From: Branchiostoma floridae
Taxonomy: Eukaryota > Chordata > Leptocardii > Amphioxiformes > Branchiostomatidae
Reading direction: 5' to 3'
DNA: 64,000 nt
NCBI RefSeq assembly: GCF_000003815.2
Contig: NC_049985.1
Coordinates: forward strand, 6,058,874-6,122,873
Under the pieces are notes generated by a model. It was not told the origin of the DNA. It made no database searches and saw only the letters and a list, made by a program, of their open reading frames with translations. A program made the translations under genes and the position numbers. The number at the start of each line of letters is the position of its first letter. Position 1 is the first letter of the stretch. Positions 1-63,420 of the stretch are shown piece by piece.

Positions 1-208
1 TGTGATGTTTATAAGTTATACACAATGGCAGCATATAATGGGCGTGTCATGAATTTGTGGTGGAGGTGTGATCGTGAAAATAAAGCCACATTGTGAAGAG
101 AAATTAAATAGTTATTGTTTGAGCTACTTTAGCCTTTTTCTCAGGGGCATCTTCAATCTTAACATTGTCAGCTGTAACTGTTTTCCCCTCTTTTTTCCTC
201 CCTGCCAG

Positions 209-3200
209 CTCTTGTGTATGAGCTTCTGTACAAGGACGTATTTAAGATGGACCATGACATCGCCGTGGTGAAAGACATGCTGGGTAACAAACAACAGAAG
301 ATCAGGAAGGACAGCACCAGCGAATCCGAGTCCTCACCCTCCAAGAACTGCGGGTAAATAGCCGACATGTAAATGTTAAGTTAGAGTAAAGTTGCCCGTA
401 CATCTGTGCAGATGCTTAGGGGTGTCGCCCATCTCCATTTCGAGTAGACCTTGGGCCACACATTTGTTCAAGCTGCTACAGCAGGGGGCTGGTCCGCTGG
501 TAGTGATGTGTGTTTAACTTCCATACTCTTCCTCATTAGTGCTGAGTGCTAAACAGAGAAAGCAGTATGTACCATTTTTAAAGTCTTGGGTATAACTCGG
601 CCGTGGATCAAACTCACGACCTACCGAATGTAAGGTGAATACTCTATCCACTCAGCCATTGCACCGGTGCAAACATGTAAATGGCCGACATGTATCACGC
701 TTAGCTGGGATCAATTGATCTGCAGATAAGCAAGATTTACAAGGCCTGTTGATGAGATTTATTTGATAAGAAAGCAATCCATTGGGTTGGAGTAGTGTGC
801 GAAAGGGTCACTTACCTCGGTGATAATGAGGCCGTGAAATAAGATTAGTCACTGTTCCTTCTCATAAAGGAAAAGATCTCAGTTAGTGTGTCCTTGATGA
901 CTGGACAAATTCCACAGTATCTGTGACTTAAATATGACTTATATCATGCACACTCTCTTAAAAGATTGTCCTTGGTAAAGGTAAATGTAGGTTTTCCTTA
1001 CTTCACTACCTTGCTATTTGTGTGATGGTTAGCTGCAGCCTTTTATTCGAGTGTGAGCGTGCATGTCCATATATGAGTTGAATTCAACCTCAATGTATGT
1101 GCTTCTTCCTTCAGAAGTGACAAACCTGACAGTGAACTTGAAGGGTCGACCGAGCTGGACGTGTCGACAGAGTCAGACAAGAGTAGAGACAACACAGAGA
1201 GACCAAATGAGAAGGTGAGCGTCAGTAATTACTGTAAATCTCAAAATGTTTGCAGTGGCATTACTTTGCTGTTTTATGCTCTTACAGAAAGTTTATCTTG
1301 CGCATTGTGAATAAGGCATAAAGGATAATGCACACATCAACATTGCATATATTTAGATAGCTCAAATGCCAATAGTAATAATATTTTCTTATATTGGAAA
1401 GCCTTGAGAAGGCCAAAATGCCAATAATGATACAACTCATTCTCCTATTGGAAAATGTTGTCTATTTTCTGTAGCAATGGAAATCTGCAGAAAGCATTGA
1501 AGTGTCCAAAATCCTATCAACTCGAGATTTGTATCTAATATTTGCTACATTCATTTAAGGTTTTTACTTCCATTTTTTGACTTGCAAATTTAAGATATAA
1601 TCAGTCTGTTATGCAGATGGTTATTTCTTTTGATAAGGTTTTATTTAACAGAGTACATGTATGTACGTAATAAATGAAAGGTAATAAGCTAAAGATAGTA
1701 TCATAGCCTTTTCAAAGGGATTTAGGGTTATATCAACTGTCTCTAGGGCACGATATTGGAATACTGAGCGCATCCTTATTCCACTACTTTTTTTCCCCCC
1801 AACCAAAGTCAGGTCTCCATTTTTACACCTGGGTGGAGTGAAGAAAGCCAATTGTGAAGTGCCTTTGGCAAGGACACAAATTCTAACCAGGAATCAAATC
1901 TGAATCGTTGGTCCCATGTCTGCTAGCCTACCCACTCTGCCATTCAACAGCACAAAAAGAGACTATCAAATTTGAATCAAAGTCTCTCATTTATTGTCTT
2001 GTGTCAGCATCTTGTGGATTAATTTGTTTGCCAATAGAGCTCGGCTGTCGAAGACAAAGGGTCTGTGAGTTTGTTACAACGTGCTCTTTGGCTTGTGGCA
2101 ACATTTTACAATGCTTGCCAAGTTCTTACCACTGAGTCTTTCAAATGCTCTAGAGGAAGTACTTACCATTGATTAGAAAATCCATCCAAGAGAGGAGTTG
2201 GCTCTCTTGGGAGACAAAAGCATTGGAGGAAAAGCTTGTTCCATTGATTCACCTTGAAACGTGGCTTAAGTCTCAAGTGTGTCGTATAAATTGGCTCGTG
2301 TTCCTTGAACTGAACTGATGTCAGGGACTAAGAATCGCTTTGTACCAGTTGACCATGTATGAACTTTATTGCTGAACACTCATATATGCCAGTACAACAG
2401 TTACTGTAAAACTATTAAACAACAATACTGCAAGGCTAATGTATCCATACATGATACATAGAGCATTTGCTATAAAATATTATCAATTGCAGTACTATAT
2501 GAATTACGTTTTTAATAATTGTATGGAAAATTTGGTCTTTCTTTTCAAGTGAAGTACAAAGAAAATGACCGATGTGGGAGTCAGACATTATAACAGATAT
2601 CCCATATTAGTCATATTACTTGATTGTCTTGTAGTTGCTCACATGAAATGCTTTTAACAAACATTGTTGTATGACCTGTCTAGAAGAGGTCATGCAAAAG
2701 GGAAAATGAAATATAGTGGACTTAGGCCACACCAGTTCTATTTTTTCCGATTTGTAAAAAAAAAACTTTTCAAATTGATGGCCACACCTCGTGTTGACAA
2801 AATTTTATAGCCTCTCCTTTCTCAAATTAACTGTGGTCCTCAAAGTCAAGTAGCAGTACGTGCCTGTTTCGGACGGTACGTTTATAATTTTTCTTCAAAC
2901 TTCGGACTTTGCTACCAAGGACCCCTAAATTAACTTAACTTAATTAAAATAACTAATGAGTAAGCCCCTCGATCTCTCCTACTCCCGACTTTTTTCAAAA
3001 GTTTATTTTTATCTTTTATTTTCGACCGACCGACCCAATTTTTTTTCTGAAAAAATCCAAGAAACAACAACTAAAATTGGTGTGGCCTTAGCATGGTTAA
3101 TTTATTGATCGGTACAGGGATGTGACTGATGCAGACAAGACAAGAGATTTTACAAGACAGTGATTTTTATTCTCAGGGGACATTACCTGAGTTACCTCTG

Positions 3201-6200
3201 CACAACTTTACAAGATAACAGGTTGTTACGACTGTCGATATATCTGCTATATATATAATGTATTGTCAGCAACTAAGTTGTGTCTATATGTAGTGTCTGA
3301 GCAGTCAGGTCCTTGGGAAGTCTCTGCGTTCCATAGATAAGTTCCTGTTTAAAAAAAGATAAGTCATCTTGAATCAGTTTAGCTGACTGAAGAGCTATTC
3401 TTCCACTGGTCATGTCAGAGAAGACAGATGCTGCATGTATGTAGAGTATTTACAAGTTCATTGCACTAGGGAAATTCTCTCAGCTCTTTTCAATACAAGT
3501 ACTAAGCACAATGAAAAGTGGACCATGGTTTAATGTTCAATTCTAAGGACTACTATCCTGTCCAGTAGCAAACATGCCAGGTGAGCAACACAGCTGGGAT
3601 TCAAATTCCCAACCTCTTGGTTTAGTCAGGATCACTAACCACTTTGCTACACAATTGGTACAGTAAACTTACTGTACTACTATAAATGTGCACAGAGATC
3701 ACAGTACACAAAGTCATGATCAATTGCTGCTTAGCTTTATGCTATCTGCTACTGTACCATTTCAGGCGCCTCATTTGTAAAGACTTGCAATGGTACGTGT
3801 AAGCTGCCTATCCTTATCCCATAGGAAGAAAAAAAGACTTCTGTATCACATGCCTCAGAGGCATTGATCATAATGATCGATAATCTCCTGAGACTATAAT
3901 TGTACACAAAAATGTACATAAAGATGTAGTCAGAATTAATCTCTACACACTTTATCCCATATGTATAGGAAAGAAAAAAGACTTCTATATCACATACCTT
4001 AAAGGCATTGATCATTGACAATACCCTGAGATTCATTGAATACAAAAATGTGCCCAAAATGTAGTCAAAATGAATCTCTACACAACTTTATGCTATCTGC
4101 TACTGTGCCATTTCAGTTGCCTCATTTGTAAAGACTTGTAATGGTACGTGTAAGCTGCCTATCCTTATCCCATAGGAAGAAAAGAAGACTTCTGTCACAG
4201 TATCACATGCCTCAAAGGCATTGATCATAATGATTGATAATACCCTGAGACTCATTGTACACAAAAATGTCGTCAAAATGAATCTCTACACAACTTTGTG
4301 TTACCTGATATCACTACCATTTCAGATCATTTGTAAAGACTTGGTAATGTAATTGTAAGGTGCCTATCGTTATCCCACAGGAAGAAAAGAAGACTTTTGT
4401 ATCAGATACCTAAAGGCATTCATCATGCTCTGAGAATTTACACTTTCCCTGGAAGCTCCAACATCAGATAGCATATAGGGAATGCCTCTACTGTATTTTC
4501 TCAAATAAAGTATTGCACTTTAAAAAGTATTCAAAATTCAAAGGTGTTGCAAGTTGTTACCAAAGTTGGAATGTGTACTTCTTTCCAGGTTATTGCACAT
4601 TATTATTCAGTAAAGGATCTCAAGTAGAGCTTGATTTTTGCAAAATAACCCAGGGAAAAGAGAAGAAAACACCATAAATTTGAATTTATCTGGTTCAAAA
4701 TGTATTCAAGATCAATGAGAAGGGTAGAGTACTTTCAGATTTACAGTTTTTCCATTGCATGTTTCAGTCCTACAGGGTATCAGGGGTGTGTACTTTAATG
4801 GGGAAGCATAATTTAATCGAGAAAATACTTTAATCGTGCATATTTTAATCGAGAAAATGCAGTATTCCCTGGTTTACGGTACACCACCAGTGCGGTGGTA
4901 TTGACAAATGTTATCGCCTGGTGCACAGACCACAGTGATACATGCTTGTTATCTGTGCGTGACCTTGCAGTCCATCATGGCTGCCGTTCCCACCGGCAGG
5001 GTGGTGGGTCGATGCTGTAGCGGTGACCTCTGCTGCAGTTTTCTAGAAAAAAAAAAAATGTTGTTTCCTGTTTACCTAATGTTGAAAAACCTACCGACCC
5101 TAGCCTTTTTTTGGGTGGGCAGTGGAGCCACATATATATAGTTACCAGTTAGAAATTAGCTGTAAAACTCTTCTGCAGTTTTCTAGAGAAAAATGGTGTT
5201 TCCTGTAAGTGTTTCTGCACCTTCCCTAGAAAAACCTGACGACCCTAGTCTTTTTTTTGGGGTGGGCAGTGGAGTCACGGTTAGAATTTTTATTCACCCT
5301 ATACTTCCTATTGAAATTTAAAAAAACCTGCTTGTCCTATATCTATAATGAAGATTAAATGTATCGGATCCACAGATTTGTAACCAGTATGCACAAAATT
5401 AAAGTATAATATACATTGTAAGCATCATTTCAGTTTTACATTCAAGTTGTTAAACTGTATTGTATCACTAGAGTTGTGGCCAAAGTCTTTTGAGAAAATT
5501 AGGGGAAAAAGATAACACCTACCCACTACCCCATTTTTAGGACTGAAACAGGAAACACAACACTTTTTTCCTAGGCCTGGTACATGTGTACATGTGTACC
5601 TGAGTGGTTGGTCGGGGTAGGAATATTGAAGCTGCTGGCATGCTTTCTTTCCTTAAGGCCACAAAATTCTGCGATTTCACTGACTTCAGTCTTCATTGCA
5701 CAAACACAAGTTAGAATCTAAAGGTTCTGGGTTAAAATCCCCAGCAGGCCCCATAGTTGTGCCCTTAAGAAAGCCACTTAACACATGTTTCCTCACTCTA
5801 CTTAATGTGGAAATGAAATCCTCTCAGATGGAGGTCCTGTATTTGAGGAGTGTCATGACATATTGGAAAGAGCACTAGGGTCCTTCCCAGTGCACCTTGT
5901 ACATAAACCTACTGCACAAAACTTGAATGTTGCATTTAAATGGTGGTTTACCAGACAGTTCTGCATGAAAAACAAAAACAAATGGAATGCACATTGTAAA
6001 CAATAATGCCAATTCTCCAACTTGGGATACTCAATGTATGTGATTTTAGCACTCAGAATAGAAGGTGGATTGGACAGAAAAAAAGGCTCTGCCATCATTT
6101 TGTCAAAATGAACATTTGTGGGTCAGGAAGTGTTGGATAAAGAAAGTGATGTGGTAGCCCTTTTGGACCTTAATCAGATTTGTAAGATGATGGCAAAGAC

Positions 6201-9200
6201 AAAACACCTTACATAATGAATGGCAGAGTCTATGTAGAAATACACAACAGCAGAAAAGGCTACAGCCTACAAAACACATGCCATGCACTGTGCACCTTGT
6301 GATATTTGCTGTTTGTGTTATATTCGCAAGGATGAAACCTACAGCAGGTCATTGTGGGCACACGCAACTGTTGATTGATCATAATAATTACAATCCGCCC
6401 CCTCTATTCCACAGGCAACACAAGCGAACGGTGCTGTAGAATATAGTAAGAAGGATGGACGAAGGTTCCCCCTCCCCTTTAAGGTGGCCAAAGCCCTGGA
6501 CCCTGAATGCTACCGAAATGTGGAATATGATACATGGATGGACTCCAAGAAAGGTGAGGATTTACTACTGTCTACTGTGATAGATGCTGATGGTGTTCTT
6601 GATAAACAGACATCATTTATTGATTCAAGCAGTTATAATTTGTAACAATCTTATGTTATATTGATGACCTGGCTAAAGTTGCAATCTACTTTGTATGTCA
6701 TTTTTCATACTAGTCTCTGCCAGAAAGATCTGTCTTATGAGTATATATCAAGGCCTGAAGGGTGAGAATAGATTAAGTGGAGGCGTCCAATACTTCACAT
6801 TATAGATTTATCTCTGATCCTGATCAAACTCACAGCAGAAGTTAGTCTCCCATATTCAGATCTTTGTCTACTACGTAAACTTTTATGCAGTGTCTGCTGT
6901 AATTCTAATGAATGAGCTGACATGAGAAAATTTGACTGCATGATCATCCATTTTACTGGTGCTGTAAATGAGATTGTGAGATTGTGGTCATTTGATTCCA
7001 TGGTAGTTAGAAGATTAGTGTTCGCGGTGGTTTTAAGTAGGCAGTAGTATTTTACAATGTAGCCACAGTGACTGCAAAAACTGCAAAAAAACATGTAACT
7101 TCCACGATGCTGCACGATGTGAATTTCAAGTATCACCAACACTGATCAGACACTGATTAGACTTTGATTTTCTATGTCAAGTAAAACAGACTAGATTCAG
7201 TTGCTTCCAACATCTTTTGCTTTGACCTTATCCATTTTTCCAGTAGACCTTACCCTCTAATGTGGTTTTAAAACAAAGGTTGCTGAGGTCCATTGCAGTG
7301 GGGCATGTATCGACTGACCTGATAACGACACAGTCTTTGCTGCAAGCGTCCTTGTCTTGTAAAACAGACTAGAATCTTGTTGAAGAGATTCATTAGTCAC
7401 ATATGTCCACAGTTGATAGAATTTTCATCTAACAGTGACTACTTTTTTGATTAAGGTAAACACACTGGTAGGTAGATAGCTATTGAAAATTTGGAGGTAC
7501 GTGTGTTTACCTTTAAAAAGTAGTCACTGTTAGATGAAAAATTCTATTAACCAGACTAGAGTCTGCTTCCAACATCTTTTGCGTTGACCTATCTGTAGAC
7601 CTTACCCTCTAATGTGGTTTTAAAACAAAGGTTGCTGAGGTCCATTGCAGTGGGGCATGTATCGACTGACCTGATAATGGCAAAGTCTTTGCTGGAAGCG
7701 TCCTTAGTGTATGCATCATAATTGACCCCAGCGGCATTCGCCGTTCCCCATAACTCACGTCCATTTGACCCAGTTCAGCAGGTATATCAGTGCTTCACAC
7801 CTGTGCCTCTGATGAGATCTTCATTAGCGCTCTTGATATATGATAGAGATAACCTGTCAGGACTTATTGACAGCCGTCCACCCACCAAATGACCCAATTA
7901 CCAATCACCTATAGATGACAGAAAAGCTGACTTAGCACCCACAGCTTCCCCCAGCGTTAGACAGGCGAGGAGACGTTGTGTTTGTGCCAGAGAAATTTAT
8001 GGTAACAAATGTATGGCGCTATCCTCATAATAGCCGGCTTGTAAAAGATTTTACTAGCAATTGAGCATGATGTTTGGGTTCAGGAGGTAGAAGATTTCCA
8101 TCTGATTTTATCGATTGTGGGCCCGCTTTTACAGTTTAGTTGCTGGAGTGTGAATTTCTGGCTGCGCTGATAATGGATTCCACCAGTATTTTAAAGGTTT
8201 GTGTATGATGAAACTGGGCCTTACTGGGTACATTCGTCTTACAAAAAAGTGTGCTAGGAAGAATCACAAGAGGTTTGGGAGATGGATGTTTATTTGGTGC
8301 AAAGTGCTTTTTGGATTAAGCCCCTCAGTTTTCTGTGTCCGTGGGCGGATATCAATGAGTTATAGCCATCAGCACAGGAAGTTATCAGGCTTAAGATTCT
8401 CCCATGACAGCGTTACGTGTCATCTTACCGTGTGGAGATGTAAAACGCTGCAGGATTTGCACATGGTTGATACCCATTGTCTCGACCATTGTTTCTTACA
8501 GAGCAACAGCGTCAGGACATGCACCTGGCGACTATGATGCAGTACGCCCCTGGAGACAAGTGCCAGGTCAGTTCAACCCTTCAGCCTGCTACGGTAGCCG
8601 TTTGGCATCAAATTTGTATCAGTTATCCCATCTTTGATTGAGAAGGAAAACGAGGGCCAGGTCAGTTCAACCCGTCAGCCTGCTACGGTAGCCATTTGGC
8701 ATCAAATTTGTATCAGTTAAGGGGTTAGGGTCTTTGATTGAGAAGGAAAACGAGGGCATGGGAAGGGGGTTATCTGTAGGATTGTGCTGTATCAGTTATT
8801 GCATAATTTCACCATTACAGGTCGTAATGCAATCATTAGTTCAATCAAGGACCTGATGCAAGACAGTTGTTGCACAGGACTTTGAAATGTTGTCGACACA
8901 ACAGACTTTTTCTGTCAGTTCTATCACCCAATCTCTTAAATAATTGCTTTCTTGATGAGATTCATTATGCTTCAAAATTGTTCTGCTACTCTGGGTAGTA
9001 GTAGACCGGTTTATTAAAAACAGCAAGACTCACATGCATGCCTTCTGCATGCTGCTGTTTGGAAAGCTGAATTGCGAGGCTGTTTAGAACAACGAGTCAG
9101 TAAAAAGGTTATTCTTACAAATCGTGTTTGTTGTGAGCAACATTTAAGCATTCGTTCAATGGTAAAATGTTAACAAAATTGAATACTTTTGATCAAAACA

Positions 9201-12200
9201 TGATTTTCAAAGCGGTACTACATATATGTATTATTGATGTATTGACATGATTATGATTAAGTTAGAATTCTATAAATTCAATTAATGGTTTGATTAATGA
9301 TTAAGTTAGAATTCTATAAATTCAATTAAAGGTTTAACATGTACGTATCTAAAATTTTCCCCCAAGGTTCGACTTGAAGGGAACGTCAAGTACTACATGG
9401 CGCATGTGCAGGAGGTGCAGGCAGAGAGCGGGCCGGTTACTGTCTTCATAGAGGAGCTCGGAGAGAAGTGAGGATCTCTTTTATCATATCTCCCTCTGCT
9501 TCAAACAAAGAAGTCAAACCCAACCTGTTTAGAAATAGCCAACACTAGTATTAGAGTAGAATATTGTTTATAACTGTTAATTGTCACTTGTATGTCTCGT
9601 ATGTTTATACCATGTACTTGCAATTAGCCCTCGGGCATGAACTTGCAAATAAACTTCTTCTTTACTACAGTAACTGTAAATGCAGAAACTTTTGCGGTGG
9701 TTTAATGTTCGCGGTTTTTGCGGTGGCCGCTTCACTGCGAATTTAAAACCACCACGAGCAGTAAGTCGAGACTACGGTGCATAAAACCACTGCGAAAAGT
9801 CCTTTTTCTCGCTACCACGAAATTAAATTTCCGCGAACTTAAATGCATTTACAGTATCATAAACCTCATTTTACATGTACCTGTCAGTCAATTTTCCAAT
9901 TTGTGCCTGTCGCTGAGTCAGTTATTAGCTCATCAATATGCTTCTCTCATCTCTATTTGCAATTAATCAAGGACATGTCAGTATGACAGAAAAGCAGGAG
10001 GTTATTCTCTCAGTCATGTTATTACTGTTACTTACAGTTGATTCATTTACTTTCATGGCGGTTTTTAGTTCACAAGCTTCAGACACAGGACATTTTGTCA
10101 GCGTAGTGTAGTGGTGAAACATGGGGTGCCATGATTTTACGATAACAGGACATTTTGTCAGCGTAGTGTAGTGGTGAAACAAGGGGTGCCATGCTTTTAC
10201 GATAACAGGACATTTTGTCAGCGTAGTGTAGTGGTGAAACAAGGGGTGCCATGATTTTATGATAGGAATAATTCAGAGGGAAATCAATTTACAGTACCTT
10301 CCATGGGTGTCACAAGACTTTCATATGATGTTATGATATATGGCTTTTAGTAAGATGTTTAAATCAATAACATTTACTACCGTAATAAAATAACATGTTG
10401 TTGTTTTTCCAGGCATACAGTTCCGGTGAAGTTTTACAATTTACAGCACCTTCCATGGGTGTCACAAGACTTTCATATGATGTTATGATATATGCCTTTT
10501 AGTAAGATGTTTAAATCAATGGCATTTACTACCGGTAATAAAATAAAATGTTATTTTTCCAGACATACCGTCCCAGTGAAGAATCTAAAGCCCATTACCC
10601 AGGTGCCTCCTGGTATGTAAAAAGAAATCAACTTCCTTTTTTTTGTGTTCTTGTGAGATTTAATATTTTGTGATTAGTTTACCAACCTCATCAAGCTTCT
10701 AGTACATTCAATTTGATAAAGGTTAGACATCGAGGTAATAAAAAAGATTTGCCAAAAAGCAGTTACTCAAGCAACTGGATATGATTTTCAACTGCTTTTA
10801 GGCAAGCTTTTTGTAGCCCTTCGACTGATCAGCCCCATGGAGAGGGGAGGAATCTCAATAATTCCCCAACAGCAAGAGATTGTGTACCATAATACAAGCC
10901 TAGTGATTAGTAAGCTTCTCTGGTCCCACCTGGCCAAGTATGCCTATAGTAAGGTCATGATATTACAAAGTACTTTATATTCATTCATTCATTCTGCTAG
11001 TCATTATGCTTAGCAATTAATAGTGAATGCATATAAACACATCTTAGTCAAACATGGCCACCATATGATTAATTACTTGCATGTAGCACTGTGGTTGCAT
11101 AAATGATGATTGATCGTTTTCTGTGACAGTACCAACTGTGCCCATGCCTTGGACAGCAGTGCCAGCTAAGGGGTACAAGAACCTCTCTGGGTATTATCAG
11201 AAGGGTGCCATAGTGCCACAGGAGATAGGTGAGATAGGCAATAACAATGTTAGGGTGTTGCTAATGATCTAAATGAACTTAAGATAACGCTAGTTCACCT
11301 TTTTCCATTGGATAACCTAGATTCGTTGTTTTAAAAAGCTGGGTGAGATTTCAGGTGAACAACATGGGTTTTAAATGTCAACATTTTCAAGATATTGCAA
11401 TGAGAAACCACCTTCCATAATAATTGACGTAATGATCCCCAAATACCTAATTTTTATAATACACAATGGATATAGGTTATGGATAAAAGTGAACTAACAT
11501 TATATAATTGTTCAGAAGATATGTTGAACTTCATGTTTGTTTGTGTTTATCAACTTTATCAAGGTCATGTTTGAAAACTGCAGAGACATGTGTTTATGAA
11601 TCTTGCAATTTATGTTTTGATATTTTACAATATACAATATGAAATCCCATTGTATCATGATTCACTGTGTGTACTGCAGATTTTCTGTTTAAGACAGATG
11701 TGTTCATAAGATGTACGTAAATTTGTATTGATCTTTAATCAACAGTGTTATTGTGTACACTAGTAAATGATCTGTTATCCTCTGAGCCACCCCCCTCCCT
11801 CTCATGTAGTAATGACCCCGTCCATTCTAACCCCGAGCATGTCAGCATGTTATAAATTACCTGTTTTGCACTGTTGTCATTGATTTCAATTGATAGATGT
11901 AGTGTTTCGTCACTTCGGCATGCTCCACTGGGCCGTACTGACGTCATTTTACAACACCTGACAGTACTACTAAAGCCGTTAAGCTCATCTCACTAGAGTA
12001 GATATCCCCAAGGCTGGAATGACTGCGCTACTGGAAAAGTTGCCTTTGCATGTCGTAGACTTAACTCCCGTTTATATAATAGTATTTGTCATAGTAGAGA
12101 TTGGGATCAGGACAATTGCGGATTGTCCTAGGACAGATTAGAGTCTCTCCTAGAGCAGTTTGGAATCGGGATCTGTCCTAGGAAAATCTGTACTAAGTTA

Positions 12201-15200
12201 TAGATTTTGCAGATTGTGATAGGACAGATCACCATCAAATTAAAATTGATTCTACATGTATTGTACTAGCCTAAGGACAGATCCCAATTCCAGTCTTTCC
12301 TAGGCTAGACTCTGATTCTAATCTGTCTTGGGGCAACTTGTGATTATCCAGAATCTCAATTATTTTCTACACCACCAAAAATGCAATTCTTATTCATTCT
12401 GTTGTATGATAAAAGTTATCTTCCACCAAGTAAGTTATTCTCTGACAGTGTGTAAAAAAAAGAGAATAAGAATAAGAAAAATTCTGAGATGGAAGAAAAC
12501 TTGAAAAAGTTTTCTTAAATCCTTTTCTCAGACCAAGTTGCTCTTTCTTATGAAAACTATTTTTGGTAGTGTACAAAATATGTACAATGACATATATATG
12601 TAGCAATTAAACACTACTAGATTTTGTGCTCGACAAATCTCTTTCTTCCATAATCCTTGCTTGATGCTGTTGCGGCTGGTACGTTTGCGTAGTGTGTAGA
12701 TAACCATATGCATGTTTGGCTGTGCATGCCCCGCCGTATAGCCACTAACCCTCCCAACACCCAGTGCGTTCTTCTCTCAGCAGCATGTTTCTCTCCCCCC
12801 TGGCACCCATTTGCAGAAGATCCTCGCAACAAGAGGAAGAACAGGAGGAAGGGAAGGGTAGGAAGAAACTCTTTTGTTTATTGTTTATCGTTTTATTAAC
12901 TCCTGTAGCTGTTGACAGCTTGTAGCTGCAACAGCTACTCTTCCAGGAGTAACAAAATTACACATAAAACTTAGACACTGGGCATAATATACACAACATA
13001 TAACAACATCCCACAGTACTAACAATCGTTATGCAAAATATTATAAAACGCATGATTTTTATTAGGTACATTTTTTTATTGAGTACCTAATGTGCCATAC
13101 ATGTATGTTGAGCTTCGCATGTGTTTCACTAGCTGCTGTTTGAACATCTTGGATGTACTTGCAGAGCTCTTTGTCATTGATTCTGAGTGTTTTAATCAAT
13201 AATTGTGCATACCTTGGTACGATGATACAGTGTTAGCAGAAAATCAATTCAGACATGATATCTGTTTGCAAGCTACATATATCATCTTGTATCAAATTTT
13301 GGATATTTGGTGGAACCGGCCCCTGGGATTTCTCTGTAATTCAAATGTTTCACTCAGTGGTATTACTTACAATCCTACATGTAGCTGGAGGCTGAGTTGT
13401 TTCTTTGCTTCCCAAACTTTTATATTGATGTCTTGATGCATATAGGGGAAAAAAGGTGGATTATGATTATAGCAAAATGTAGTGGAAACTGTAAGTCCTG
13501 AAATGTTCACATTGGTTTTATTTTGGTTTGCACTATGATCCCTCACCACAAAATCGTGACAATAATGTGTTATGTACTAACTGCTGTTCTTCTGAATTCT
13601 TTCAGACCCAAACCCCAAACACTGCAAAAACAGCCATTCCCCTCTGAAGCAAAATTTATAGTTACTGCAAAAATATGATTTAATGAATTATTTTGAGCTG
13701 TATTACATGTAAGAATATCTAAGAGATTATGGATGGTAAAGAGGACTTTCGAGGTAATAATTGGATGGAGGTGATGTCGAACTCTTACCCTTTGTAAAAC
13801 ATAGGAAAACGGCATCCCGCCGTTCATGGTGCAGCGTGTGCAGCCGTCCCTCCCGCCCCGGCTCCAACACGAGGGGCAGTACAGCCCCAAGTACCACCAC
13901 CACCACGGGAGGGAGTACCAGGGCAGAGACTACCAGGGGAGGGACTACCAAGGAAGGGACTACCAGTCCAGGGAGTACCAAGGAAGGGAGTACCAAGGGA
14001 GAGACAGGGACTACCAGCCAAGAGACAGGGACAGGGAGTTCCAGAGGCCTCCTCATGGGCAGAGATACAACGGACAGGCAAGGTATGGAGAAGACATAGA
14101 GAAAGTTGTACGGTAAAATTTAAGTTCGCAGGGACCTTTGCTGTAGTGGGAAAATGGAGTGTTTGCAGTGCTTTTAAGTTCGCGGTAGCGCCATAGACTG
14201 TAGTTCTCGGCAGTTTTAAGTTCGCAGTGAAGTGGCCACTGCAAAAACCGCAAACATAAAACCACTGCGAACATCTCTGCATTTACAGTACTCCTCTCCC
14301 TGACAGTGAATGAACTGAATGCAGCCCATACAATTCTGTTCAAAAATTGGCTGCTTGTGCTCTTTATCATTTGTGCAGACTATAAAGAAAAGAAGGAAAA
14401 GTTACAAATTCTAGGCAGGTGTTGTCCTTACACTGGGTTTTTGTGCAGTGGCATGACAAATTGTAGCTCCAACATTCTTGACTTGGGAACAAATGAGCCC
14501 GAATCCTACCACAAGATGTTAGATTTGGGTTCATCTGCTCTGTGACTTTGCACCCTTCTAGACGCTTCTGATATATCAGCTGTGGACTGTGTTGAGATGA
14601 ACTAAACACAAAGGCTAGCACAAAAAGCAGACATATAAAGTTTTGCAATTATCGTTTAAGCTCTAGGAGCTAGCAGCTCACTCAAAAGAGATTTGTGGTG
14701 TTGCTTGCCCCGTTTTTGCTGTAAGGCACATATTTGGGTTATTCTGTACATTTTTTGACAGGAAATGTTGCCCACCATTCATGTAAATCCTTATGGTTAT
14801 GAGCCTTTGACAGATTCAATTTGCCCTGAGATTGATGCATCGCCCAAGGAGACACTAAAACTTCAAGAAAACTAAAAATAGCACTCCATAAAGCCTCTTT
14901 ACTGATTGACTCAAAGTGCAGGAGGGACTGCCTATTCCCATTCATTGTCTGTCAGGGATTTGATTGAAGTTTATCACTCTGTTTACAAGGCAGTTGCATG
15001 CGAGATCACACTTGGTCAGTGACCCAGCTTTCTCCTCGAGTTATCTCTTAGGTCCAGGAATCGGCAACAGCTTAATAAAAAGGAGCGTCTTTGTGCATTC
15101 CTTATCTCAGTTCTGGCCACACTTGATAAATCAGAGATGTTTGGGGAGGGCACAGAGTCACAGTGCATGCGTGGTAAGAAAAATGGCTTGAGCACATTTC

Positions 15201-18200
15201 CCTTATGCACAAGCATGCAAAGGTCCTATATCTGTAGCCTGGTATCCATCCTATTCTAGCTCTGTTCACTCCTTTGATGGCTTCTCTGCAGAATAGTCTT
15301 GGATCTAATAGTGAGACAATTGGCACTTTATATTCTCATGTAGACTAGTGCTCTGAGTCATGCGGTCCGCGCAATGGCATAGTAACAGGGTTTGAGCAGT
15401 GATTCTAAAGTTCGATCCCCGTTGCACCGCATCTGAGAAATATTTGGTCACCGCAATAAAGCAGAATGTAAAGCTCCTGGGATACAGGCAATGAGCCTCA
15501 GTCGTATTTAAAAGACGGCTTAGTCGCGAGCATATGATTTCCTTGTAATCTACCTAATCATCAGACATCGATGGTTCGGACATGGCTCATACCTGTGGAC
15601 ATCGGTCCATCTCCAACATTCATGTGATGATAGACTCAAGAACTGAAGATGAAATAAATAAATAAATAAATTCAGAACTTGCAGGCCAATCAATTTTCCT
15701 GCTGTGTGGCAGGCATTAGGACCAAATATTTTAATGGGATGCCATGTAAAACATTTCCCAATCATAATTCATATCCAGTTGTTTAACTGACTATTTGGCA
15801 TGTATATTATTACCTTCCTGGATGTCTAACCTAATGTATTACAACATGTAGGACCAAATGTTTTAATGGGGATTGGGCCCAGACTATTTTGCATGGAAGT
15901 TATTGTTGGATCAGAACTGGAGCTAGAATTGGCTGGATTCCAGGCTACTGTAGATCTGTGGGTAGCCCTGAAAGCGTACAGTTGTGCCTCCCCTGTCCAG
16001 TCCCCGGTACCAGCACTATGGCAGGGACTATCACAGCAGGGACTATCAGGGCCGGATGTACCACGGGTCCCCCCACGGCCACAGGTACAGCTCACAGGGG
16101 AGGTATGGTCAGTCCTGCCAAATCAACACCACCGCCACAAAAAATATCTTTTGCACTGCCTCCTGAAAATGCACAACAAAAAGATAAATGCTTTGATCAC
16201 CCTTTCCTAGTTATTCTCTTGAATTACAACTTTCCAATCTCTTATTTCCAATGCCACAGAAAAAGAGACTTGCACACAAAATTTCACCCCATAACAGCTC
16301 TTACTATGTTTACAGAATGTGTCAGCTAAATTATATGTTTTCCTGATGTATTGTGTACATGTATGTCAAAGACTGGTGTATTTGTATCTTTGTAGTTGAT
16401 TGTCAAAGGAAGTCAAACCTTGGTAGCCAACCACCTGGCACAGCCAATTACAGTCCAGTTATAATGTAATCTTCATTAAAACAGTTTCGTCCATCGTCCA
16501 ACGTAGTTAAGACCTCTTGATTGAAGTAACCAGTCCCTCTCACCAACCAGGTTTCCTCAGTTGCTTGAGTGGTTGCTGAGGCCATTAAAGTTACATGTAC
16601 ATGATATGAAGAAGCAAGTACTGTATCTAGTGAGTAGATAGATCAGTGTCGTGGTTTCTGCAGTATCCAGTCAAGACGCTATAATATATTGAAGATGCTA
16701 TTTCAACCCCAAATTTATAACATTATATCAAAAATGTCCTTTCCTCATCTCCCAATACAAGATAAAACCACTGCAAAAGTAAATGGATTGATTTTACAGT
16801 ATTTTTGTCCTGATTTCACCCCAGCTTATGCAATATGTTTTCAGTTTTTCTATAAAGTGCATGTGCCTTCAAGGTAATTTTGTCCTCCCTCTTCCTTCCA
16901 TACATAAAAGAACTAGAAGACTCGCTCCTTTTGACAGATGGGCAATGACACACACGAGTGCCTCCAGCAGTGTAAGAAGTTGCCTCAAATTGAGAGGTTG
17001 CCGGGAGCCCCACATAAAACTAGCGCAAAATGAAGCTATACGTCATCGTCGTCATGAACCTGTGGAAGCCCAGCACTTTTGTCATAAAACATCCTTCCTC
17101 CCCATTTCCTTGCTACGCAGTTGGAGTCTCCTTATATTTCTGTCCATAAAACCAACTCCGGATGTCCTAAAGGAAAAATACCAGGTATACATTTAACACA
17201 GTCATAATCGTATACTAGATGCCATTTTCTTCCCTTGAAGACAAAAACACTACAACCGTCATTCTAAGTGCCATAAAGTCGCTGTGGTTAGTTCTTTTAT
17301 TTTTTCTGTTAAACCACTCTAAGGTGTAACACACCAGTTTTGTTCAGTATATACAAGCTGTGTAAATCTGGACTGTGAGGTTTGATCTAATCATACTAGG
17401 AAAGACCCCCGGACCTCTGTTCTTTTCAGTAAGTGCTGTGGGATCTTAGATGTCTTGAGGTGTGGTTCGCAAACACGGGTCCTCCAGATTTACACCCCAT
17501 CCGAGAGAACGTCAGACTCCCTAACCAAAGCTAGGTATTCATTTCAGTCAGAAAATAGGCCTGGTAAAAAGTATGTTTCGCAGGGGTGCAACATTTGGGA
17601 AGAGGACGTAGGTAATACTATTCATTTTCAGTCAGGAAATAGGCCTTAAGTACCTTACCGAAAGGGTACAACATATTTGGAGCCTACTAGGGAACGTAGA
17701 CTCCAAGTCTCAATAACCCTAACAGCAAGACCAACTTGCCAGCTGATTGTTTGTTCTCCTCTGTTTGCAGGAACCAGCCTCCGCGCTTCATGCGTCAGGA
17801 CCAGATGGATGGGAGGGGACCAGGGCCGCGGCCCGGCAGCAGGTCAGCACCACTGATTAATGGATGAACGGCTTGTTGTGCACAGCAGAAGTCTCGTAGG
17901 AACCATTAATCAATTAAGAACTGTTACAGAAGCAAACAGAGATCCTAATTGCGGTATACGCTTTCCATTTCTTACATGGGGTGGTGTGCTGTTACTGCAG
18001 GGTGTTTGGCATAGTACCCAGAAATCTTAGGCCCAATCTATACACAGTTTTTACCGATATCTGTGGATGTGTCGGGAGGGATCTGGAACGTTGGCCGCCG
18101 GACACCCGTGGCGCTTGCAGTCATTAACAGCTATATAGCCTAATGAGCCTGCGTTATATGCTAATGAGCCCTCCCGAAGTCGGGATACATCTACACACGC

Positions 18201-21200
18201 GCGGAAGCTGTCGGGGACCCGTGCCAAGCTACCGGGGACCCCTGCTAAGCTGTCGGGCGAATGGTCCGGACCTTTCGGGAGAAATTTTCCCGATATCTTT
18301 ATGGCGTTATTGCAGTTCCATCTAGACGCTGAAAAAAAGCTGTCGGCGAGAGGTTGTAGGCTCGCTCGCTATATCGGGAAAAACTGTGTATAGATCGTGC
18401 CTTAGTTTGAACCCTGTCATGATACTAATGTTGTGCCTTTGGGAAAGGCACTTTACACGACTTTCCTCACTTCACCCAGGTGCAATAATGGGTACCTGAA
18501 TTCAGTTTGGGAAGGTAAATGACGTTTGGAGGAGAGGGTTTTGCTCCGACTCCCTATGCCATGCCCTTGACATACTGGACAACAACCATTGCCTCTATGG
18601 CCTCCAACCACTATTGGACTTTCAATTTCTTTGAGTTATTCCTTGCCCTTCTTCTTACTCAAGGACGTCTAAAGTATCAAACATAAGTCCTAATATAGAA
18701 ATTGGGACGTCTTGAAATGTTGCTCACTTGACTATTAAGTTCCAATTTGCCTTGTCCTCATAAGGACAATCCTTGTTAAATCTTGTGCATTGATGTACAT
18801 CTAGCCTTTTCAGGCAAGAAAATCGCAATAGATATTGATGTTGGGAATGTAATAGATTACTCAATTATCGGTTTTATAAGTGCCATGATGTATATTACTT
18901 GGGTACATCCTTTATGTAACGTTTGAGGATAATTTAGACCTGCAATCATTATGGTCTTCGTGGATTTCAGTGTACATTGCACATATCCATCCTCATTTGG
19001 TCCCTGATATCTAATTTACACACCCACAGTTTCCCTGAGGCGTTGGGTGTTAAGGGGTGGCTGTATGGGGGAGGATTTTGATGAATAGCTTCAATCGTAT
19101 AGCTAAGAGGACTGCTCAAAGTATTATGAAGTTTCATAATATTCACACACATACATTTACAAGCTGACAATACTGACAAATTCTAGAATAGCTTACACTT
19201 TGCTGGTAGATTATATGATGCTGCTAAAAGCCCCTGTTGTTACTCTAGCTGAAATAACAAAAGAACAAAGTAAATCTTTCACTTATGTACTTAAGTGTAT
19301 TAGAAAATGCCCTTGAATGGCTTTAGATGTAGTTGATATTCATCTGTACAATATACATCAGATTTTGTGGCATGTTTCCAAGTACAGAGGGTTACATTAC
19401 ATAGTAAGACATGCCGTGACTGGCATAAAAGTGTTTAGCCCAGAACCATGAGGTTTGGGGATCATATTCCCTAATATGCCCTGGTTTAGAGCCCTTGTAT
19501 GTATGTAGAGCCCTTGGGACGGCACCTTAAATGACTTTTCTCTGGCTTCACTTTGGTGAAGTAACTACATGTAACTACATGTAGCTTTGTCTAGGGTTGT
19601 TCCTCTTATAGTACATTGAATGTAGCACATAAAAAAAGCACTATGCTTCAAGAGTACAAAGTTAAATGTATCTTTCGGTGGATCAAAGTTTACAATGTGC
19701 ATACCTTGCTGATGGCCCTCTACCTAGATAATTAATAAGAAGCGAGAAGAAGTTGAACTTACATACATACTAGAATGTATTAGCAATAATGTAGAGGTGA
19801 TAAGATACCTTTTTCTTATATCAAAATTGACCTTATCACTAGCGCTACAACCTGTACTTAGCTTGTTTGAGCACAAATGTACAATAAAGGTCAATCATTC
19901 AATGTGTGACTTTCCCATCACCCAGGTACCAGTACAGTCATGGGCGAGGTCGGGGGCGCGGCAGGAACACCCCCACCCCTCCCCCGGGGCCGCCCCAGGG
20001 GGAGATGGACGAGAAGCAGGCCATCGAGGAGTCCATCGTTCTGTACGAGCTCCAGCAGAGAGACCCTGATGCCTTCCCTGCACTGCCGGTAAGGAGTGGC
20101 ACAGTTAGTACTTGTAGTATCCTTCACTGCCGGTAAGGAAGGGCACAGTAGTACATGTAGTTAGTATTTGATTATACCACTGCTGGGATCCCTGACTCAG
20201 GGGTAGGTAGTAGTCTGCTAGTCTCCAGCAAAGAGACCCTGATGCCTTCCCTGCACTGCCAGTAAAGAGGGGCACAGAAGTAGAACAATCATGTAGTATC
20301 TATAGTATTTGATTATACTGTGTTAGGATCCCAGACACGGGTAGGCAATAGGTTACCTCTGCTAGTCTCCAGCAGAGAGACCCTGATGCCTTCCCTGCAC
20401 TGCCAGTAAAGAGGGGCACAGAAGTTTTCATTCATTTCATTCATCCTCGCCGCATATCAGACTTCGCTGAGGCGGGCCGTCATCGTTCTCCAATTCTTCC
20501 TGTAGTAGAACAGAATTCTTCCTGTAGGGGCACAGAAGTAGAATAATCATGTACATGTAGTATCTAGTATTTGATTATACTGCTGCTGGGGTCCCTGACT
20601 CAGGGGTAGGTAGTAGTCTGCTAGTCTCCAGCAGAGAGACCCTGATGCCTTTCCTGCACTGCCGGTAAGGAGTGGCACACTGCGTCATTTTCTCGTTCAT
20701 AAACCATTGATACAAACTGTTTCCTTCCCAATATTAGCATTGATGTAATTGCCCACCTGTAACCTATTGTATCATGCATCACCAAGGTTTGTAATGCCAT
20801 CTTGTGTTTGGTGATTGTACTGCAGGTACATGTAGTGCCCTGCCAGTAAGGCCAACCTCACATTTCTAAACAGGCTAGGGGCCCGAATGGGCAGCTTTCG
20901 GGAACATGATCATAGTAATCTCTAAAACAAGTTTGTAAAAGCTTGCCCTGATATGTAGTGTCTTAATAGTTTTGACTTTTTCTCTGTAGACATCTAACGG
21001 ACAAGTGCAGCATGTTCAAAGCAACACGGTATGGGGGAGGGGGCGAGGGCGGGGCATGGGGCGCCGCACACCCACCCCTCCCCCTCCCTCCACAACCCCC
21101 AGTGATGGAGGCCACAGCATGACCATGGAGGAAGGCTCTCTCTGCAGCAGCATGCAGGAGCTCAACATGAACGAGAGGGCCAGTCCTGGTGGGTGGGCAG

Positions 21201-39771: not shown

Positions 39772-40743
39772 TGTCGCCTTTGTTTACTTTTTGCTGAGCG
39801 CTTTGACTTATTGTGCAAACATCAGGGCTACCTTCATAATACAAGCGGCGTCACATGACCACATCCATTGTAAGAAAGGTGGCGGTCACCGTTACGTCTA
39901 CGACAAACCGCCTGAGTCTGAGAGAACTTTTCCAGTTGGGTTTCTTTAATGCCGCTGCTTCCTGATCTCCCGAAGCAAACTCGCAACTGGAACGGCTGTA
40001 CCTTTGGCTTTTGAGCTTTAAAGTTTGAGAATCGTTCAGATACAACTTGTATTTTCCTCTACTTCTATTAAATTTGTACATGTACTTGACTACGAACAAG
40101 CTAAGTGCAAATACGAGTCTAAATCGTTAGGGGGCATGGCAGCGTGCGAGATGAATGTAGGACATCAACCATTTGTAGGTTGTGAGACAACACAAGTACA
40201 AATGACCGTCTCTGTGATCAGTGCTTTTACTTGATTTAGAAGACAGTATGTCGTTGCACGGCAGACAACTTAGTACTGGCCAAATGGCTATGTTGTTTTT
40301 TATTTCGCTATCTATGCAACAACAATAGGCAAATTTTATCAGTACAATGTGCAAGGCCATTACGTCGGAGCCAGTATTTGCATTAACAAGAATTAGTTGA
40401 TACAATGACAACAAATAGCTGGATGTAATGATGATGAATATATGTGATGAAGTAATGATGATGGATAAATCAAAAATCAAATTCAGAAATAAGATCCGAT
40501 GGCACTTAGTTCATAAACTGATGCAAGTCTTCGCTAAACAACGAAACGAAAACGTGTGACGCCCATAAGCATGTAACATTGTATCCTTAAACTACTCATT
40601 ACGTGCAAGCAGTGATGTAGATGTATAAGGTATGAATCGGAGAACTGCTCAAGTTCGAACATAAGCTTTGTTGGTCGTCAGGGGGCGCTTCTGTACTGCC
40701 TGTCACCTCTGCTGGGAGGTACTGCACCGTTATCATCATCAAC
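39772..40743. promoter_or_regulatory. Divergent upstream region, orphan gene / kelch gene
   Basis: Shared 5' region of two head-to-head genes. It contains a dispersed repeat at about 40075-40190 (ACATGTACTTGACTACGAA ... GTTAGGGGGCAT ... TGTAGGACATCA) that recurs at 45025-45137. I see no clear TATA box. Confidence 0.35.
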
Positions 40744-43700
40744 ATGGCTGCCGCAGACCAAGAACGCCACGTCGCCGTCGGTCCGTCAGTTCGTCCTCGT
40801 TCCTACCAAGACAAGAGCTATCAGGACGGGTTTCTTGAAAGTGTGGGTGACTTACAGAAGGCTGGGGTACTGCAGGATGTCGTTATTGAAGTTGAGGGCC
40901 GGCGTTTTCCTTGCCATCGGCTTGTTCTGTCCGCGGCCAGCCCCTACTTCAGGGCCATGTTTACAAGTGGCATGGCGGAAAGTCGGCAGAAGACGGTTGT
41001 TTTACAGGTAGGGTTCGCGGAATGTTTAACGTTAACGATTAGATTAAACAAAATATAGAACATACTAAGAAGTCAAGTATCATATAAACTCAACAGGGGA
41101 AGCGTGTTGTTGACTCCTCATCTTACCCCCCTAACGTTACCCATGCCAGGACACAGTTTTTGGCATACACACGCCTAAAGTGAGAAGCGTCAACACTTCA
41201 AAATCTATAGTAAGGTGTACAAAGGAAGCACAAGAATTTGACAAAATATGTTACGAAATTGGTTAAATTGCAATATTTAAAGTTCGTTCATTCCCATACT
41301 AGTAGTCACTTAAATATGACACCCAGTGGAGGTCATCAATTTTGTGGTAGTTGAAAACAGAGTCTTCACAGTTGAAACTATAATATAGAGTTTTACTGTG
41401 AAAGGGAAAATGTTATGTCAAGTCAAAATCTTAATTTATTCTTAATCATTTACTAGTATGTTGGCAGGGAAGAGGTCACCACAATAATATGAAAATAAAA
41501 TTATTACAATCTTCTCTCCTTCTGCAGGGTTTGGATGCAAGCATGTTTGGGGAGATCCTGACTTACATCTACTCGGGAACCCTCCAACTGTCCATGGACA
41601 AAGTGCAGCCCCTGTACCAAGCAGCTGACCTCCTCCAACTGGACTATGTGAGAGACACCTGCAGCAACTACATGTCCATGAACGTGGAGCACTCAACCTG
41701 TGTGGACCTGTACAAGTTTGCTGATATCTTCTCCATGGACATTGTCCGGAAACGTTGTCTTCAGCTTATCCACAGTCATTTTGCCAAGGTTTGTATTTGC
41801 ATTATAATTATTCTCTGACATGTGACAGGACGTTGGGACATATTGAAGATAGAAGAACAGCTAACATTCTACAGAAATCTAGACTGTCGGTGGATGTATA
41901 CTATTAATCTGCAGCATAGCCTGCTCCAATTGCACCACAACCATCTTAATTCATACAAACCAATGAACTTCCATGCACAAGGACTGTTACAGAACCTGAT
42001 ACTCCTTCTGCCCAAGACCACAAATGTGATGCTGGCGAGTTATACGAATTACAAAGACAGATGTCTTTGTAATTCGTAATTGCCTGCACATCTGCACACA
42101 GTCCCTTGACCTCCAGGTCCCTGGGGGGACTTGGTAGACATGAAGATTGATAGCCAGGGTATGTTACACTTTATGTTAAAACCATAAGAAGGAAAGCAAA
42201 AACTGGTCTGTGACAAACATTTCCGCACATACCTATACTCTGCACGTGCGCCTCCACAGGTTGCCTCCATCGAGGACTTCTGCAGTTTGAATGTTAATCA
42301 GCTGACTGAGATCATCAGCCACGATGGATTGGATGTTAAAGAGGAGACAACAGTGTGGGAGGCTGTGGTGAGATGGGTGCAGCACAGCAGGGAGGACAGG
42401 TGGGTGTCAGTGTATTTTTGGTTCAGCTGACAAAATCAAGGCTTCACTGTTATAGAATGTCGTGTGTGGTTGATACTTCATTGAGAAGCTACTATGATTT
42501 TTTCAACCTTTATTTAGCCTTGAGTACAATCCCTTTGGCCTAACGGAGTTTTTGAGGGTTTAGGGTTTGGAGGTCAAGAGGTCTTTTGTGATCCAGGAAA
42601 TCATCTAAATCCACTCCTACCCTACAGACTACACCACCTACCCAGCATCCTCCCTCACATCCGCTTCAACCTGCTGGCCTCAAACGACACGGCAGCCATA
42701 TTCGATCACCCCCTGGTCAGGGAGGATTCTGGGAGTTCTGAGGTCATCAGGAATATTGTGCAGCAAGGGAACCCCATCCTAAAGCCGCGGCTTGGGATGG
42801 AGACGATGGGAATGGTCCTGATGTCCACCCAAGAGTATGTTCATGTATAATATACTTTAATAAATTTCTTCTAGGTCAGAAACAATCCTAACAATGCACT
42901 ATGTCATTCTGCATTTTGTTTCCTCCAATGCACATTTTTCCTAACTCATTTGCAAGTTATTTGACTTGATAGATGACAGTGCGTGCTGTGATGAAAGAAA
43001 AGGTCTGAATTTGCAGGTTTTATTGACAGTTTGCAATGTATTTTATCCTCTCCAGGCTAGATGAACTCTTCTTCATGAACCCGCGGAAAGGGAAGTACAT
43101 CATCTGCAACTACGATCCTGGAGACATACCTTATGCCAGGGCCATGACAGTCACCAGTGATAACAACATTTACATGCTGACTGTAGAGCACGAGGGTCTC
43201 GACCAGCTTTGCCTGTTTCGGTACAACCATGCAGAGAATGTGTGGCAACGTGCTGGCATTTCCTCAGTGCCTGTGTTGCATAAGTCAGAAGATGATTGTC
43301 TTTGCTATGAAGAGCGCCTTTTTGAAATTGGTGGAATTCTATACTTCATTTCAATTGCAGAGAAAAGAAAAAGAGTTTTTGTTGCTATGAGAAAGTATGA
43401 CGGACACACGGACTGGTGGCTGGAGTGTTGGGGGCTGCAACTGAAGGAAATTTCACAACACACACTTCAGTCCTGCGGCTCACACCTCTATTTCCTCACA
43501 AGTGATGAAATGTATTGCTACGACCCAAGCCAAGACTGTTGGGACAAGCGGACACCGCCGAAACTCATTCCTAACGTTGCCACAGCCATTGCCATGGGAA
43601 CAGAGATCTTCTGCACAGATCTACACTTCACCAACACTATGGTCTACGACACACAGTCAGACCGCTGGCAGAAACTGCAAGGCTGGCCAAAGCCAGAAAA

Positions 43701-43998
43701 CCTTGATATTGATTTTGAATTTCCTCCCGGTCTTTTTGTACTGGAAAACCGTCTGCACATATGGGTAGAAGCTGTGGACTCTGACATAGATGATCCAAAC
43801 TATTCAACAGTATATCGGGTATATGTGTATGACAGGTCTGCTGATGCCTGGAGAGACTTACAGGTTACCCTGCCTGATGATAAGAGATTTAGCACTGTAG
43901 ACTGTCTTGGGCCCCTTTGCCCAGTGGCACATATATACATTCCACACCTTAAGGAAGCACACAAGCACTCCACTAGATACCATTATCATGAAATGTAA
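40744..43998 (+). CDS. BTB-BACK-kelch protein (KBTBD/KLHL family)
   Basis: Exons 40744-41007, 41528-41788, 42260-42399, 42628-42834 and 43056-43998 join in phase, giving 604 aa. Start context is CATCAACATGG. The BTB domain (about residues 25-135) carries LQDVVIEVEGRRFPCHRLVLSA (LQDVVIEVEG / FPCHRLVLSAASPYFRAMF) and LTYIYSGTLQL. The BACK domain (about 140-255) includes CVDLYKFADIFSMD and TVWEAVVRWVQHSRED. The rest forms degenerate kelch blades (YARAMTVTSDNNIYML, MYCYDPSQDCWDKR, VYDTQSDRWQKLQGWP, VYVYDRSADAWRDL). Such proteins are usually substrate receptors of CUL3 ubiquitin ligases. LKPRLGM before the propeller resembles KBTBD2/KBTBD8-type proteins. All blades sit on one 943-bp exon. A possible AATAAA is at 44975. 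Confidence 0.9.
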
Positions 43999-56684: not shown

Positions 56685-56928
56685 AATGTTTTGTCTTATC
56701 AATTTCTAAACAATAATTGTGGTGATGCAATAATGCTGATAGCATAATAATGTTATTTAACAAGAAAAAATACAATATTTGTGAAAAATAACGAGTTTAT
56801 TACTTAATTATGCACCATATTCTGCCATCTAAACACATACATACAATAACTCTTGTCTATTTTCCCGCAAAGATCTTTCTTGTAGGTTCCTTCTGCACAT
56901 TCTGTCCATATATTGTTTTTAATTAATT

Positions 56929-62974: not shown

Positions 62975-63420
62975 AATTAGTGTTTATACTGTGTGTTGTG
63001 ACCCTTTGTAAATTCAGTGTTTATACCAAGTGTAGTGACCCTTTGTAAATTTAGTGTTTATACCAAGTGTAGTGACCCTTTGTAAATTCAGTGTTTATAC
63101 CAAGTGTAGTGACCCTTGGTAAATTCAGTGTTTATACCAAGAGTAGTGACCCTTAAAGCTTTGTAAATTCAGTGTTTATACCAAGTGTAGTGACCCTTGG
63201 TAAATTCAGTGTTTATACCAAGAGTAGTGACCCTTAAAGCTTTTTAAATTCAGTGTTTATACCAAGTGTAGTGACCCTTTGTAAATTCAGTGTTTATACC
63301 AAGTGTAGTGACCCTTTGTAAATTCAGTGTTTATATCATGTGTAGTGACCCTTAAAGCTTTTTAAATTCAGTGTTTATGCCATGTGTTTATACAGAAGTA
63401 ACCCTTTTCAAATTTAGTTT
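62975..63420 (+). repeat. 37-bp tandem satellite
   Basis: About eleven head-to-tail units of TTTGTAAATTCAGTGTTTAT then ACCAAGTGTAGTGACCC, period 37 bp, with a longer variant of 45-46 bp containing an extra TTAAAGCT. Variant units alternate in places, so higher-order copying occurred. There are no unique spacers and no cas genes. Confidence 0.95.

Follow-up and report, generated by a model that had tools for sequence, protein, structure and literature searches.

Intronic copies of an exon end and an interspersed repeat in a putative OTUD4-like gene of Branchiostoma floridae

The intron 3' of exon 19926-20088 in this stretch of the Branchiostoma floridae genome contains three 33-nt units (Table 1) that copy the end of that exon and that are bordered by potential splice sites. 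The question raised by this locus is whether the units are microexons with which the number of a peptide motif in the protein can be varied, or whether they are passive products of the way in which the intron was built. Positions are those of the window, which is the whole stretch of 64,000 nucleotides that was analyzed, and genome searches were made in an assembly of 513.4 Mb in 431 contigs.

Intronic units and their host gene

The source of the units is the last 33 coding nucleotides of the exon (20056-20088). All three units encode QRDPDAFPALP, and in each of them TCTGCTAGTCTCCAG is found directly 5' and GT directly 3'. Unit 1 differs from the exon end by CAG to CAA and CCG to CCA, unit 2 by CCG to CCA, and unit 3 by TTC to TTT, and all of these changes are synonymous. 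Chance similarity of the units to the exon end is ruled out by the self-BLAST alignments that span them, which have E-values of 1.8e-45 to 4e-17. When the upstream exon, any subset of the units and the exon from 20990 are joined, the eight possible inclusion patterns (8/8) are all in frame and free of stop codons. The sequence-only reading of this DNA had described three intronic copies of the exon 3' end, each with an acceptor-like sequence, a length of exactly 33 nt and a GT donor, in phase 0 throughout so that any number could be included without a frameshift, and with synonymous CAG/CAA, TTC/TTT and CCG/CCA differences as the only changes. Each part of this description was borne out by the sequence and the self-BLAST, with AG and GT borders in 3/3 units.

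The length and phase of the units have a simple source. In the exon, CTC CAG|CAG is read in frame, and because of this a copied block has to contain an AG whose distance to the copied donor is exactly 33 nt, which is divisible by three. Both the 33-nt length and phase 0 are therefore inherited from the exon, and the frame is kept at any inclusion number because the units were copied from an in-frame exon end. Selection is unnecessary as the cause of the 33-nt phase-0 length, given that both properties come from the CTC CAG|CAG of the exon.

The host gene had been named OTUD4 in the sequence-only reading, and part of this assignment holds: an OTUD4-like gene is plausible, but not proven. In favor of the name, an exon-like stretch (VVLCFSHGNHYDSVYP) found about 0.6 kb before the window (L054:9404) contains GNHYD, which we take to be the OTU-type histidine motif, and this stretch may be the last part of an OTU domain that is divided among several exons. 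Against the name, Pfam gave no OTU match at this place, neither in the forward-strand frames of 1-20000 (E cutoff of 0.1 or 1) nor in the 20 kb upstream of the window (E cutoff of 0.1), where one sub-threshold hit belonged to an unrelated family, and none of the 75 OTU matches found genome-wide lies here. The GNHYD stretch searched alone gave no Pfam match and no convincing PDB match, and the PDB search with the frames of 5001-20000 returned 0 matches. As a positive control, the BTB exon of the same window was recovered by Pfam; shorter OTU exons could escape this search. In the literature, a search for OTUD4 with FPALP gave no match, and OTUD4 with amphioxus gave nothing related.

A search with the host exon (E up to 10) returned five matches, namely the exon itself, the next exon (E 0.015, 38% protein identity) and three with E-values of 1.5-7.8. 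The only strong match being the host exon itself, a paralogous exon elsewhere in the genome was rejected. Positions 19942-19985 of the host exon and 21041-21084 of the next exon are 75% identical over 44 nt, both with a G/R-rich part followed by a PTPPP start, which suggests that the two exons arose from each other by an earlier tandem duplication within the gene. Further upstream, at 13902-14005, a 15-nt coding repeat gives rise to GRDYQ/GREYQ repeats in an open frame that possibly belongs to the same gene as the host exon.

Architecture of the array

The true repeated block is 54 nt long (CTCCAG...GGCACA) and consists of 39 nt of the exon end and 15 nt of the intron start. It starts at four places (20050, 20223, 20367 and 20626), the array together with the exon copy spanning 20050-20679, and the blocks alternate with fragments of an interspersed repeat (Table 1). 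The block-to-block spacings are 173 nt for the first interval (S1), 144 nt for the second (S2) and 259 nt for the third (S3). The extra 29 nt of S1 and 115 nt of S3 are largely, but not exactly, explained by a 44-nt local tandem duplication in S1 and by a further insertion of about 113 nt in S3, part of which matches a second genome-wide repeat. After the last block (S4), the intron continues without further similarity to the units.

Table 1. Features of the array and of its flanking exons, in positions of the window
Feature	Position	Strand	Remarks
Host exon, OTUD4-like (name partly supported)	19926..20088	+	Codons from 19927; phase-0 end CCG|GTAAGG
54-nt block, copy 1, with the real donor	20050..20103	+	39 nt exonic, 15 nt intronic
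44-nt local tandem duplication	20077..20161	+	CCG|GTAAGG again after 20132; splicing there would include 44 nt more, with a frameshift
Repeat fragment S1	20147..20224	+	Limits as aligned; acceptor context of unit 1
Unit 1, QRDPDAFPALP	20229..20261	+	CCA|GTAAAG as a weak donor; AGs upstream at -7, -15, -18, -22 and -28
Repeat fragment S2	20286..20368	+	Limits as aligned; 6-nt insertion, through which unit 2 has the best pyrimidine tract among the units
Unit 2, QRDPDAFPALP	20373..20405	+	Top-scoring acceptor of the three; weak donor CCA|GTAAAG
Second insertion within S3	20424..20536 (approximate)	+	20437-20503 matches another genome-wide interspersed repeat
Repeat fragment S3	20548..20627	+	Limits as aligned; acceptor context of unit 3
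Unit 3, QRDPDAFPALP	20632..20664	+	Donor CCG|GTAAGG identical to the real donor; weak acceptor
Last 54-nt block (S4)	20626..20679	+	End of unit sequence in the intron
Downstream exon	20990..21187 (3' end approximate; GT near 21189)	+	Follows TCTCTGTAG, phase-0 start; first part similar to that of the host exon

The genome search found one such locus in the assembly. This single occurrence, together with the high polymorphism of amphioxus genomes, would agree with an assembly artefact in which alleles or noisy repeats have been stacked side by side, but a simple haplotype stack would not have the unequal spacings, the mixed repeat types and the second repeat in one copy alone that are observed here, which makes an artefact highly improbable. 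Judged by the 54-nt blocks, S1 goes with S4 and S2 with S3 (three of the five variable sites split in this way), whereas the repeat fragments group S1 with S3, and this discordance indicates that there has been exchange between the copies.

Searching the genome with the array showed that two of its stretches match many places. Stretch 20557-20630 belongs to an interspersed repeat with many matches genome-wide. When 20540-20640 alone served as the query (656 first-look candidates, 40 scored), at least 41 matches were obtained, of which 3 fall in the window. At least 38 scored matches thus lie outside the window, 28 of these 38 outside copies being used for the comparison of repeat copies. The left end, after a TAG-rich tail, is common to the 28 copies, and the right end differs between them. 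Sequence to the right of the core is held in common with another copy in 9/28, to a length of 40-130 nt, and only 1 of 378 copy pairs have in common a sequence that abuts the core from the left. Many dispersed copies with one fixed and one variable end are what characterizes a 5'-truncated interspersed retroelement, and the element would look like a 5'-truncated, 3'-anchored retroelement that lies antisense to the gene, probably of a non-LTR/SINE-like class. An origin from a known structured RNA was rejected, given that Rfam at the gathering score gave 0 matches in the four loci searched (L031, L033, L052 and L001).

The fragments in S1, S2 and S3 have three differences in common with respect to the majority of the 28 copies. 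Each of these is found in 2-3 of the 28 outside copies and all three together in none of them (0/28), for which reason the fragments probably descend from one insertion. The repeat supplies TCTGCTAGTCT of the acceptor-like stretch of the units, the final CCAG being copied exon, and 15-26 nt lie between the 54-nt block and the repeat core. A plain tandem repeat of the exon border without foreign DNA is ruled out, given that the upstream part is a dispersed repeat.

Direct repeats were also looked for around the 28 outside copies. In one of them (L035) a direct repeat of 43 nt is flush with the right edge, its other copy lying 242-285 nt to the left of the core, and L018 is a shorter version of L035. 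L028, L036 and L052 have direct repeats of 20-37 nt as well, none of which is flush. In the control with swapped flanks, 0/84 had a repeat starting within 80 nt. The second genome-wide interspersed repeat in S3 (20417-20503) has a TTCATTCA-type end, and its matches elsewhere, among those listed, are 91-98% identical.

Splice signals and variation among the copies

Donors and acceptors were scored with a rough matrix of mammalian frequencies. The donor of unit 3 is identical to the real one, and those of units 1 and 2 (CCA|GTAAAG) are without the G at -1 and at +5 of the real donor (CCG|GTAAGG), which places them at the 81st percentile of the GT sites of the window versus 99.7 for the real donor. 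With the same rough matrix, the acceptor of unit 2 reaches the 97.7 percentile versus 96.4 for that of the exon itself. The acceptors of units 1 and 3 are weak, and no unit is strong at both sites. The gap between units 1 and 2 (20262-20372) would be a potential mini-intron of 111 nt.

In 3/3 units the nearest upstream AG stands 7 nt from the acceptor, and four more AGs are found within 46 nt of each unit. For six exons of the gene this distance is 16, 20, 36, 44, 49 and 57 nt, the exons other than 19926-20088 and that from 20990 onward being our own reading of the sequence. UGC is present close to the 3' splice site in 3/3 units. With regard to the branch point, CTGAC occurs at 34 nt for units 1 and 3, and none of the branch-point matches listed for the units is CUAAY. 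For unit 2 no YTNAY was found within 60 nt, which separates little, given that the host exon has none either. Taken together, the splice signals are mixed but speak mostly against exons, and a working microexon array is unlikely.

The AG at -7 would, if used as acceptor, give a 40-nt exon in which the seventh codon is a stop, in 3/3 units. This raises the alternative that the array acts as a brake, with mis-splicing to the CTAG at -7 or to the duplicated donor at 20132 leading to frameshifted transcripts that are degraded. Such a role would be in line with the stop in the 40-nt form of each unit and with the second perfect donor, 44 nt 3' of the real donor, at which splicing would shift the frame. 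The CTAG acceptor, however, scores poorly (33.7 percentile in unit 1, with negative scores also in units 2 and 3), and a poison outcome is the default for random cryptic sites, so it indicates no special function; a brake is quite improbable.

The amount of change does not set the units apart from their surroundings. Three of 33 sites are variable among the four copies of the unit sequence versus nine of 60 among the three copies of the repeat core (Fisher p 0.53, Poisson p 0.27), which means that the units vary no less than the neighboring repeat. All three variable sites of the units are synonymous, for which the null probability goes from 0.016 under equal rates to 0.048 with transitions only, in a post hoc comparison, and the CCG/CCA difference could have arisen in the coding copy itself. 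There are no indels in the 54-nt blocks versus three in the repeat core of S2, which is compatible with selection or with exchange between the copies.

These observations bear on the possibility of regulated alternative microexons, of which zero to three would be included to vary the number of QRDPDAFPALP motifs in the protein. That every combination of units is in frame, that only synonymous changes have occurred and that unit 3 carries a perfect copy of the donor would all be in favor of such exons. The variation of the units, which is no lower than that of the adjoining repeat, argues against them, as does their length of 33 nt, which exceeds the classic microexon limit of 27 nt. A comparison can be made with the eMIC-dependent exons of flies. 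In their description (PMC8797185), the 3' sites are very weak and the 5' sites weak, while the 5' site upstream is strong; UGC stands near the 3' site, UCUC motifs are present, the AG exclusion zones are long and the branch points (CUAAY) are strong. The units resemble these exons in part: they are short phase-preserving candidates with the UGC of TCTGCTAGTCTCCAG, the upstream donor is strong, and the donors of units 1 and 2 and the acceptors of units 1 and 3 are weak, whereas the donor of unit 3 and the acceptor of unit 2 score high. They differ from the same description (PMC8797185) in having AGs where an exclusion zone would be, at -7 and at four further positions within 46 nt, and in the absence of CUAAY among the matches listed for them. 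Regulated microexons are, on balance, unlikely.

Origin of the array and comparison with known systems

The likely explanation for the array is a passive partial duplication of the exon, linked to a mobile element, that gave rise to frame-preserving pseudo-microexons which are mostly skipped. In the simplest reading of the mechanism and of the order of events, an antisense fragment of an interspersed element would have entered the intron right after exon 19926-20088, where 54-nt copies of the exon-intron border would have flanked it much as a long target-site duplication does. Amplification would then have turned this unit, about 144 nt in length, into three intervals, with some exchange between the copies. 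Frame-preserving pseudo-microexons would arise automatically in this way, because 33 coding nt come with every copy, together with a donor and with an AG derived from the edge of a CAG codon. As judged from their splice signals, the units are probably skipped for the most part, and low-level inclusion may occur, most likely of unit 3 or unit 2. The sequence-only reading had left the choice between a young tunable motif array and a recent duplication. The latter is supported, with a more specific cause in the repeat fragment and the 54-nt blocks, while for a tunable array the coding potential and the frame stand but the acceptor context, two of the three donors and the amount of change give no positive support.

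Some observations run counter to this explanation. A target-site duplication of 54 nt is unusually long, and the gap of 15-26 nt from the block to the repeat core and the scarcity of long direct repeats at the outside copies (one of 28 flush, three not flush) speak against the insertion step. The exact donor of unit 3, the acceptor of unit 2 with its score above that of the exon, the variable sites that are synonymous only and the blocks free of indels speak against passive copies.

The insertion step also competes with an origin in which the repeat came first, being already present in the intron when a tandem duplication with breaks in the exon and in this repeat took place, and in which the last copy later lost its repeat. 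This accounts for the sharp CTCCAG border, and for the junction an overlap of only about 2 nt, between ...GTCT in the repeat and CTCC in the exon, would be enough, but an extra deletion is required in the last copy. Such an order of events is possible but doubtful; it would also yield passive copies, so that its odds overlap with those of the preferred explanation, from which it departs in the insertion step alone.

Passive duplication linked to a mobile element has points in common with several known routes to new exons and introns. As in the exonization of interspersed repeats, the acceptor side of the potential exons is here provided by a repeat, but the exon body is copied coding sequence of the host and not repeat. 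Tandem duplication of exonic or exon-intron sequence can give rise to new exon or intron parts, because splice signals are copied with it (PMC2891723). The tandem copy in the present locus likewise brings splice signals with it, but, compared with those duplications (PMC2891723), the copies are situated within an intron that was already there, include no more than 39 exonic nt, alternate with a repeat fragment and offer candidate sites only.

Introners are transposable elements that create introns, with splice sites taken from the element and/or from the target-site duplication; the target duplications named in PMC9860276 are of 3-9 bp, and in one introner family the transcript becomes 12 bp longer, 8 bp of this coming from the duplicated target. 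The present element and its duplicated target could similarly supply donor and acceptor together. The differences from the introners of that account (PMC9860276) are a duplication of 54 nt versus 3-9 bp, a site at the edge of an existing intron, and splicing that is putative. It is rather improbable that the array is an introner-like cassette, in which the element and its flanking duplication would form a mini-intron and an in-frame 33-nt exon with each tandem copy, spliced in some transcripts and perhaps within a neural microexon program. If this were true, the cassette would provide a protein motif array that is variable in copy number. Among the literature titles retrieved on amphioxus microexons, tandem exon duplication, intron gain, SINE/target-site duplication and introners, none names this array.

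The mechanism proposed here, passive duplication linked to an element, is ordinary and its outcome is neat. If it is right, insertion of an element beside a splice donor, followed by tandem duplication, can yield in-frame coding copies bordered by splice sites, which are raw material for exons. It also calls for caution, in that matching phase, matching length and synonymous-only differences may be inherited from the source exon and not selected.

Other features were observed in the window. On the reverse strand, 53875-56796 is an open frame of 974 residues with a reverse transcriptase domain (RVT_1, E 2.4e-41). On the forward strand, two open frames in 40636-43998 show a BTB domain and weak matches that are kelch-like. 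A minisatellite with a basic period of 37 nt and a higher-order period of 81 or 118 nt is found at 62975-63387.
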